Positions 36,884-40,166 of a stretch of DNA of 64,000 nucleotides are shown piece after piece. Within the stretch, counting starts at the first letter, position 1. Every line of letters starts with the position of its first letter. The position numbers were made by a program, and so were the translations under genes. Origin of the DNA: Pseudomonas sp. B21-040 (GTDB lineage Bacteria > Pseudomonadota > Gammaproteobacteria > Pseudomonadales > Pseudomonadaceae); contig NZ_CP087176.1 of NCBI RefSeq assembly GCF_024748695.1, forward strand, positions 5,263,501 through 5,327,500, read 5' to 3'. The notes under the pieces are model-generated. The model made no database searches and had not been told where the DNA came from. It saw only the letters and a program-made list of their open reading frames with translations.

Positions 36884-36940
36884 CGCAGTTTTGCGCGCGT
36901 GAAGCGCCCTTCCACCCCCTCTTGAAGCAGGATGTTCACC

Positions 36941-38290
<1,350 letters not shown>

Positions 38291-38305: not shown

Positions 38306-38319
38306 TGAAAAAGGCGACC
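38306..38319 (+). terminator. Left half of the icmP terminator, interrupted by the IS
   Basis: TGAAAAAGGCGACC is the exact inverse of GGTCGCCTTTTTCA at 39923-39936. Joined through TTCG they form a 14-bp stem with a UUCG tetraloop and T tail, a textbook terminator. The insertion lies precisely in the loop. Confidence 0.88.
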
Positions 38320-38356
38320 TTCGCAGACTGTGTGAAAACGCGCTGAAGGCCGGCCC

Positions 38357-38391
38357 AACAAACGCCCCGACTTGTTCGGGGCGTTTGTTTT
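38357..38391. terminator. Internal IS terminator
   Basis: AACAAACGCCCCGA / TCGGGGCGTTTGTT with loop CTTGT and T runs on both sides. It lies after the transposase stop on the minus strand and also blocks transcription entering from icmP. Confidence 0.85.
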
Positions 38392-38419
38392 GGTGCGGGC
38401 GACAGGCGAAAAAAGCCTT

Positions 38420-39838
38420 TCAGCCCATTAACGCCATCAATTGGCGGGCCCCGAGCACACTAATTGCGCGTTTTAGGTTGTAGGCACTCACTGCCAAGGC
38501 CATTTCCGCTCTCGCGCCCTCCAGTTGACGCAACAGGAAGCGAGCATTGCCAAACAGCCATTGCTTCAGGTTGCCGAAGGGGTGCTCAACAATGGATCTT
38601 CGGTTGGCCATCATCTGCGGATGGGCCAGCATTCGTTGCTCCATTCGCTCAAAGGCTTCTTCATGGGCGTGGCGTGAGACGTAGCGGCGCTGAGCGCCAG
38701 TGCATTGGGATTTGAGCGGGCAGGCGGCGCAGTCGCTGACATCTGCCTGATAGATCCGATCGCCCTTGTGGCGCTGTTTGAGCGTTAACCACTTGCCTGC
38801 CGGGCACTGATAACGATCGTGTTCGGCTTCGTAGATAAAGTCTTTGCGCTCAAAAAAGTCCTCACCACCAGGATTGACCGAGCGGTTGGGCGGCACATAA
38901 ACGGTAATCGCAGCCTCCTCGCAGGCCTGAAACTGCTGGCCGTTGGAGTAGCCGGCATCGGCAGTCACGGTCAGGGCATCTTGTTCCAGCTGTTCTTTGG
39001 CGGCTTTAGCCATTGGTTCGAGTTGCTTGCGGTCGTCGCCATCCTGGGTAACCTCATGATGCAGAATCAGGCAATGCTTGGCATCCACGGCGCTCTGCAC
39101 GTTATAGGACACACGCGGCCCCTTGGGCGTGCGCATCATTCGGGCATCGCTTTCGTGGGTGTTGAACTGCTCCAGGCCCATCGAGTTCATCAGCGCTTGG
39201 CAGCTCTGATTGTCCTGCTGGCGAACTTTAAGCTGCACCAGTGCTGTTTTGATCGCGCCGCGATCAATCACCTCTCCCGCATCGAGCCTGTCAGCCTCAT
39301 CCAGTTCGGCCAGATACTGAGCGATGCGCTTATCCAGTTTTTCTTCCTGACGCTTGAGTTGCTTGAGGTTCATATGGCGCCGCGAGGAAGCGACTGCCTG
39401 AAACTTGCTGCCGTCGATGGCCACCAAGTCTCCTGCGATCAGACCGGCCATGCGGCAAAACCGGACGAAGGCACCGCACGTCGCCACAAAGGCGGATTTG
39501 TTGTTTTTGCGAAAGTCGGCGATGGTCTTGAAGTCGGGCTTAAGCCGGTTGATCAGCCACATCACTTCGATGTTGCGCTGGCACTCGGCTTCGAGACGCC
39601 GCGATGAGCGAATCCGCTGAAAATAGCCATAGAGGTAGAGCTTGAGCTGATCGGCAGGATCATAAGAAGGACGACCTGTGCTTTTGGGCAGCGCTTTATC
39701 AAAGCCCAGTTGCACCAGATCCAGCTTGGCGACGTACAGGTCAATAACCCGAACGAGATGATCCTCGGGGATCAGTTCTTCCAGCGAGACCGGGAACAGA
39801 CTGGTCTGGCTACGGGACTCACCTTGGATGTAAGCCAT
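38420..39838 (-). CDS. IS1182-family transposase
   Basis: DDE transposase of 472 residues. The N-terminal domain has RPSYDPADQLKLYLYGYFQR. Catalytic acidic residues are recognisable in GDLVAIDGSKFQA, TVTADAGYSNGQQF and IVEHPFGNLKQWL. A cysteine cluster (QCPAGKW..., CAACPLKSQC) is typical of the family. I start at MAYIQGESRSQTSLFP; the 12 codons before it fall in a perfect hairpin and have no ribosome site. No frameshift or stop is seen, so it should be functional. Confidence 0.93.
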   Translation of the reverse strand: MAYIQGESRSQTSLFPVSLEELIPEDHLVRVIDLYVAKLDLVQLGFDKALPKSTGRPSYDPADQLKLYLYGYFQRIRSSRRLEAECQRNIEVMWLINRLKPDFKTIADFRKNNKSAFVATCGAFVRFCRMAGLIAGDLVAIDGSKFQAVASSRRHMNLKQLKRQEEKLDKRIAQYLAELDEADRLDAGEVIDRGAIKTALVQLKVRQQDNQSCQALMNSMGLEQFNTHESDARMMRTPKGPRVSYNVQSAVDAKHCLILHHEVTQDGDDRKQLEPMAKAAKEQLEQDALTVTADAGYSNGQQFQACEEAAITVYVPPNRSVNPGGEDFFERKDFIYEAEHDRYQCPAGKWLTLKQRHKGDRIYQADVSDCAACPLKSQCTGAQRRYVSRHAHEEAFERMEQRMLAHPQMMANRRSIVEHPFGNLKQWLFGNARFLLRQLEGARAEMALAVSAYNLKRAISVLGARQLMALMG

Positions 39839-39843
39839 AACGA

Positions 39844-39877
39844 AAAATGCTCCGTATCTTTCGATACGGAGCATTTT
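39844..39877. promoter_or_regulatory. Anti-readthrough hairpin before the transposase start
   Basis: AAAATGCTCCGTATC / GATACGGAGCATTTT is a perfect 15-bp stem with loop TTTC, ending six bases before the transposase ATG on the minus strand. Such stems in IS elements stop outside transcripts from being translated into transposase. Confidence 0.7.
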
Positions 39878-39922
39878 CTTTGAGCTTTGCGCAGATTGCT
39901 AGGTTTTCACACAGTCTGTTCG

Positions 39923-39936
39923 GGTCGCCTTTTTCA
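39923..39936 (+). terminator. Right half of the icmP terminator, displaced by the IS
   Basis: GGTCGCCTTTTTCA continues the icmP terminator stem across the insertion (see 38306). The separated halves can no longer act as one RNA hairpin in icmP transcripts of normal length. Confidence 0.88.
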
Positions 39937-39956: not shown

Positions 39957-40067
39957 GATCGTTCCCACGCTCTGCGTGGGAATGCAGCCCGTGACGCTCC
40001 GCGTCACACCAAAAGCCGAACGCGGAGCGTCCGTTGAGGCATTCCCACGCAGAGCGTGGGAACGATC
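39957..40067. repeat. Intergenic palindromic repeat, GTTCCCACGC family, copy 4
   Basis: A full 111-bp member bounded by GATCGTTCCCACGCTCTGCG and GCAGAGCGTGGGAACGATC. An inner GTGACGCTCCGCGTCAC palindrome is present. It lies 20 bases after the icmP terminator remnant. Confidence 0.92.
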
Positions 40068-40166
40068 ACCCTGCGCCAGATCAAGCAAACGATAATTCCT
40101 CTTATTCAAATTCCCATCCCCTGTTAGACTTTGCGCCCTTGTTTTGCTCGCCTTGCAGGATGTCTG

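Follow-up and report, generated by a model that had tools for sequence, protein, structure and literature searches.

The terminator hairpin behind an icmP gene of Pseudomonas sp. B21-040 is split exactly in its loop by a mobile element, which raises the question of what the transposase recognizes when it selects such a site. We analyzed this locus in the window, the whole stretch of 64,000 nucleotides under study (positions 5,263,501 to 5,327,500 of the forward strand of NZ_CP087176.1), and all positions given here count from its first letter. A preliminary description had placed an IS1182-type element in the TTCG loop of the icmP terminator, and the sequence was found to be as described there. 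The features of the locus are the following:

36932 to 38290, plus strand: icmP-like gene for an imelysin (Peptidase M75), followed by the split terminator (open reading frame; Pfam PF09375, E 1.2e-88).
38306 to 38319, plus strand: left half-stem of the split terminator, TGAAAAAGGCGACC (sequence; core hairpin intact in 7 of 24 relatives' loci).
38320 to 38323, plus strand: first copy of the target duplication, identical to the terminator tetraloop TTCG (sequence).
38324 to 39918, minus strand: IS1182-family insertion sequence of 1595 bp with its transposase on the minus strand (NCBIfam NF033551, 431 bits; 12 near-identical genomic copies).
38357 to 38389: hairpin resembling a terminator, with a 14-bp stem and a 5-nt loop, within the 3' end of the element (sequence; most of 34 element types have a hairpin there, with pair changes).
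38420 to 39838, minus strand: transposase gene with the probable start MAYIQ (longest open reading frame reaches 39874; start from peptide patterns and match starts).
39844 to 39877, minus strand: hairpin that immediately precedes the transposase start and has a Shine-Dalgarno-like GGAG in its 3' arm (covaries among 34 element types; role putative).
39919 to 39922, plus strand: second copy of the target duplication, TTCG (sequence).
39923 to 39936, plus strand: right half-stem of the split terminator, GGTCGCCTTTTTCA (sequence).

The match of the transposase to the IS1182 family model (cut-off 270 bits) covers residues 20-471, and the protein carries the Pfam domains DUF772 and DDE_Tnp_1. IS1182 elements are ca. 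1.6 kb long and have a single transposase gene, terminal inverted repeats and a short direct repeat. The element fits these features with its length of 1595 bp, one transposase gene, the ends CAGACTGTGTGAAAAC...GTTTTCACACAGTCTG and a 4-bp duplication. Another member of the family, ISPse1, is listed at 1653 bp with 4 bp in the accessible part of its source (PMC3281130). Based on the peptide patterns and match starts, translation probably begins at 39838 (MAYIQ...) and not at the first in-frame ATG at 39874. Comparison of the transposase with PDB sequences gave no match at E 0.01, and a search of phages gave none at E 1e-20. Further, six shortened copies of ca. 550-1100 bp were observed (L133, L135, L055, L069, L078 and L079) which have both ends and mostly terminator-like flanks; these are possible non-autonomous derivatives.

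The icmP product is an imelysin/M75 family protein according to Pfam, and the gene is no Dot/Icm gene; icmP is the name in use for imelysin M75 genes in Pseudomonas. When restored, its terminator has a 14-bp stem and a TTCG loop and scores 35 on the pairing scale of this analysis, and the 4-bp duplication is the tetraloop itself, as the preliminary description had it. Empty sites were searched with the icmP end in 38 genomes, 26 of which matched, yielding 25 loci including the own one; the 24 others were judged by eye in 150 bases each. An uninterrupted GGCGACC-TTCG-GGTCGCC stands behind icmP in seven of them (L247-L252 and L254), the same TTCG hairpin loop with 1-2 stem changes in three (L253, L256 and L260) and a TTCG loop with a different stem in one (L261), while the remaining 13 have another terminator or none that is clear within 150 bases. 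The presence of the empty TTCG hairpin in relatives indicates that the element split a pre-existing terminator loop. The suggestion that the element separates icmP from operon partners could not be upheld, since seven relatives have an intact terminator after icmP, and since the sequence that precedes the next gene recurs, by eye, in L253, L260 and L268. REP-like inverted repeats adjoin the occupied terminator at 39960-40068 (by eye).

The genome that harbors this locus (G000; 6.75 Mb, single contig) contains 12 full copies of the element, 10 of them identical. In all 12 cases a 4-bp duplication lies in or overlaps a hairpin loop, and runs of A or T flank the hairpin. None of the copies interrupts a frame that is open through the site (mechanically called open reading frames), and 10 of 12 follow the stop of such a frame (at least 90 codons) at a distance of at most 50 bp. 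Background levels are low. Of the 4-bp windows in 800 kb of this genome, only 0.065% come within half a base of a hairpin axis (hairpin score at least 24). In 400 kb, 0.105% come within one base of such an axis, as do all 12 element sites. The prediction that most genomic copies would lie in terminator hairpins was therefore borne out against a chance of ca. 0.1% per site.

We extended the analysis to copies from named contigs (best 80 of 95), from overlapping genus surveys of 298 and 398 genomes, from carrier searches and from 7 of 20 plasmid records. Matches at E 1e-120 were obtained in 28 of the 398 surveyed genomes. After de-duplication 127 full copies remained, of which 113 carry duplications of 4 bp or more; among 126 Pseudomonas-type full copies, 112 have duplications of 4-6 bp. 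The counted set comprises 109 sites in Pseudomonas and Stutzerimonas. It leaves out one Bacteroidales locus (L062), three sites located in genes or next to them and 14 duplication-less copies, as well as sites with flanks below 40 bases (L041, L046, L125 and any others), loci with one end and members with other outer bases. Hairpins were found at 95 of the 109 sites (own genome 12/12, genome G396 20/27, others 63/70), so copies are not scattered over random non-hairpin sequence. Our data thus confirm that the element mostly goes to terminator-hairpin loops behind genes. Retaining the three gene sites gives 95 hairpins at 112 sites, with 20/29 in G396 versus 75/83 in the rest (p=0.013). A first check for shared insertions was blind to indels; a gap-tolerant one flagged L045, L143 and L335, of which L143 together with L043 looks like a single shared insertion, and omitting the three leaves 92 hairpins at 106 sites and the same picture. 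In case of G396, which carries 35 copies, the share of hairpin sites is lower than elsewhere (20/27 vs 75/82, p=0.04) and some copies lie in open frames (mechanically called). Surviving copies may have been filtered by selection, with recent bursts showing the raw preference and older sets being filtered.

Across the 109 sites, duplications of 4 bp (84 sites), 5 bp (21 sites) and 6 bp (4 sites) were observed, which rules out the fixed 4-bp duplication assumed in the preliminary description. The duplication is centered exactly on the hairpin axis in 74 of 95 hairpin sites. Further, its parity follows that of the loop: even duplications lie in 63 even and 11 odd loops, odd duplications in 17 odd and 4 even loops (p=2.8e-8), so that exceptions amount to 11/74 and 4/21, respectively. 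The same relation was seen on the reduced set of 106 sites (61/11 vs 4/16, p=1.1e-7) and within G396 alone (p=0.03), while in genome G064 all three 5-bp duplications are in odd loops and 9/10 4-bp duplications in even loops.

These numbers bear on the alternative that the transposase recognizes an extruded hairpin or cruciform and duplicates its loop by cutting at the stem-loop junctions, as in pathway c of the model drawn for IS1272 (Wan et al. 2017). We consider this explanation less likely than not. It would account for the duplication equaling the loop in 57/61 four-base and 11/16 five-base loops, and also for duplications other than 4 bp being confined to hairpins (25/95 vs 0/14, p=0.04), since non-hairpin sites show a 4-bp duplication in 14/14 cases versus 70/95 at hairpins. 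IS1272 itself targets hairpins according to the accessible text of PMC4923244 and PMC5678879. However, three-base loops gave 4 bp (5 sites) or 5 bp (5 sites) and six-base loops mostly 4 bp (4/6), and the cut is thus not generally at the stem-loop junction. For the same reason, equality of duplication and loop length was discarded as a rule in favor of axis parity.

A hairpin as the sole signal is also rejected by the 14 of 109 sites which lack one and by the hairpins that the element leaves alone. In 800 kb of the own genome 1084 hairpins score at least 20; only 97 are terminator-like, and none of the 12 copies is found in any of the 987 strong hairpins without A/T runs. Aligning hairpin half-sites at the cut revealed a mirror-symmetric motif, consisting of an A-tract at -11 to -8 (A frequency 0.87-0.93) and a C at -1 (0.89), with the complement on the other side. 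Half-sites from non-hairpin sites show the same phase with weaker frequencies (A 0.47-0.72, C 0.75; 18 sites, including four later left out of the 109). Using a ranking motif trained on hairpin sites of other genomes only, with positions -6 to -3 excluded, all seven non-hairpin sites of G396 were placed in the top 0.09% of windows in a 400-kb sample of the same genome. The seven non-hairpin sites outside G396, unranked in their own genomes, have a weaker A-tract, with a mean of 4.1/8 positions compared with 1.6/8 for random sequence in G000.

The relative weight of motif and arm pairing was assessed by logistic comparison with background windows, using sites with 4- and 5-bp duplications (own genome n=12, G396 n=25, G064 n=13). 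The motif yielded likelihood ratios of 241, 422 and 220 in the own genome, G396 and G064, respectively. Base pairing at the four inner stem positions added 4.7, 7.2 and 12.1 (sum 24.1, p=2.4e-5), while GC content of the inner stem positions added little except in G064 (19.1). As 23 of 25 G000 background windows scoring at least 18 on the full motif are hairpins, motif and terminator overlap strongly, which makes it difficult to tell them apart by genome data alone. A conditional test that included the stem positions in the motif, and suggested no hairpin effect, was set aside because it over-adjusts, and the reduced motif was used instead. Pairing of the arms remains informative after the motif, in line with the hairpin-based alternative, which means that a pure duplex-motif model is insufficient. 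We conclude that the motif is read first and that arm pairing is a smaller helping effect.

Starting from the sites, the duplications, the motif and the parity rule, all of which are observed, we consider it quite probable that this IS1182-family transposase picks its targets by a mirror-symmetric duplex motif, with pairing as a non-essential extra preference. The duplex motif would comprise AAAA 8-11 bp out, C beside the cut, 4-6 free bases, and then G and TTTT on the opposite side. Strand transfer would be symmetric about the dyad axis, which would yield a 4-bp duplication if the axis lies between bases and usually 5 bp if it lies on a base. In these GC-rich genomes, terminators with a 5-8 bp GC stem between A-tract and loop would be the best matches to this motif, so that most copies would split terminator loops behind genes. 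Arm pairing would add preference, perhaps via cruciform opening of the palindrome, and would not be essential. A more specific version, for which our belief and doubt are about balanced, is that the DDE transposase reads terminators as two A-tracts one helical turn from the dyad axis and sets a 4-, 5- or 6-bp stagger by the axis position, with cruciform opening as a booster.

We further infer, alongside duplex reading and cruciform help, a role for the hairpins at the element ends, which would terminate transcripts again and keep read-through expression of the transposase low. Covariation was evaluated on 34 non-redundant element types, with counts taken without a control, and the hairpin at the transposase start shows changes on both sides of several of its pairs. 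This hairpin, with its Shine-Dalgarno-like GGAG, could mute read-through translation, and both end hairpins could restore termination once the host terminator is split. It is plausible, given these conserved hairpins, that a terminator of the element replaces the split one of icmP, as had been proposed. A simple terminator scan listed neither the split icmP terminator nor the end hairpins, whose T-runs are inside the stem. By eye, the A-tract distance or closing pair of the end hairpins (39844-39877 and 38357-38389) fits the target motif poorly, a mismatch that could protect the element against self-insertion.

Two other explanations fare less well than the hairpin-based one. Specific recognition of UUCG tetraloops by the transposase is highly improbable. 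Duplications of TTCG or CGAA are indeed enriched in the own genome (9/12 sites vs 2/97 background terminator-like hairpins, p=2.7e-9), but they make up only 23/109 overall and 0/13 in G064, and GATA, TTGG and CTGG are duplicated at the other three own sites. UUCG is thus a bias of the copies in this genome and not a general rule, and may be a bias of the own element subtype. The preliminary claim that the transposase recognizes terminator or UUCG hairpins therefore stands with respect to terminators as targets (12/12 and 95/109) and falls with respect to both the hairpin as such and UUCG as a rule. Weak target choice, where insertion occurs widely and selection leaves harmless copies behind genes, draws on G396 with its copies in open frames and 7/27 non-hairpin sites versus 7/82 elsewhere (p=0.04), and can hardly be correct since harmlessness does not explain base-exact axis centering, duplication parity or the motif at non-hairpin sites, and since even in G396 20/27 sites lie in hairpins, compared with 1.2% of background windows of that genome lying no more than half a base from such a hairpin axis.

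Ends were exchanged between copies for eight of the 14 copies without a duplication, and seven of the eight matched a partner: L298/L314 and L306/L308/L309 of G396 regained duplications in clear hairpins with scores of 21.5-34, and L142/L148 of genome G236 regained them in weak dyads (9-11), while L272 had no partner. Two further matches were dismissed as chance because they joined different genomes, with a score of 9. This sequence pattern points to recombination or inversion between element copies behind the missing duplications. The sites of three copies of G236 (L142, L148 and L157) resemble one another (gagctgccgAAGgctgcgatctttt) and apparently belong to a dispersed repeat. Distant members from Methylobacterium and Collimonas were considered as further cases and rejected, as the duplication is GACC/GGTC in 6/6 members with both ends and a duplication; 4 of the 10 full copies listed lack a matching duplication. 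The six (L049, L052, L056, L057, L058 and L060; 41-44% identity) are found in CGACCC-like sequence with no terminator.

Our findings suggest how an element can attain 12-35 copies and yet mostly spare genes, and terminator targeting likewise suggests a reason for the conserved hairpins at the element ends. The element is a natural example of mobile DNA settling where little harm results, apparently via a motif that good terminators carry. If the proposed reading is true, cut spacing would be adjustable rather than fixed and the terminator would serve as a safe harbor. A terminator-seeking transposase could also be a tool for integration behind genes. A stagger linked to target symmetry is, to our knowledge, unusual for a DDE transposase.

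Several known systems share aspects of this behavior. Group IIC introns, which are mobile as well, likewise insert at intrinsic terminators; they are retrotransposing ribozymes, whereas the enzyme here is a DDE transposase. The annotated relative ISPpu20, an IS1182-like element of the P. putida plasmid pWW53, shares 70% DNA identity and is at such identity a different element; its insertion likewise divides a terminator-like hairpin, where the loop has 5 bases and the duplication 5 bp. No paper using the name ISPpu20, and no report of IS1182 members targeting terminators in Pseudomonas, was found in the literature searched, a collection with only a minor part of the subscription papers. Insertion sequences that target REP palindromes, described in the accessible part of PMC1525189, have palindromic extragenic targets as well, while the targets here are A/T-flanked terminator-like hairpins in 12/12 own sites, which tends to speak against REP targeting by the present element. 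Some IS1182 members target palindromes according to Siguier et al., as cited in the accessible text of PMC4923244 and PMC5678879; the latter states there that no detailed data were given. For the same family and likewise palindromic targets, the present analysis provides 109 sites together with a comparison to empty sites and a test against background.

The closest parallels are IS1272 and TnSha1 of staphylococci, also IS1182-family elements, which insert in both orientations in inverted repeats or hairpins, several of them confirmed terminators, as reported in the accessible sections of Furi et al. 2016 (PMC4923244) and Wan et al. 2017 (PMC5678879). Transposase family, type of target (12/12 and 95/109 sites) and insertion in both orientations are shared with the present element. 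In the same sections, IS1272 is described as deleting part or all of the hairpin without a duplication and as lacking primary sequence specificity. In contrast, the Pseudomonas element keeps both arms (12/12), duplicates 4-6 bp of the axis region and has a symmetric target motif of A-tract (-11 to -8) and C (-1). It thereby resembles a path in the IS1272 model, given as hypothetical in the figure legend of PMC5678879, in which the loop alone is duplicated. Terminator-hairpin targeting as such is already known for IS1272; the kept arms, the duplication and the motif set the present element apart. The element described here is a counterpart to IS1272 in which both arms survive, with enough independent sites to infer the signal and the placement of the cut.
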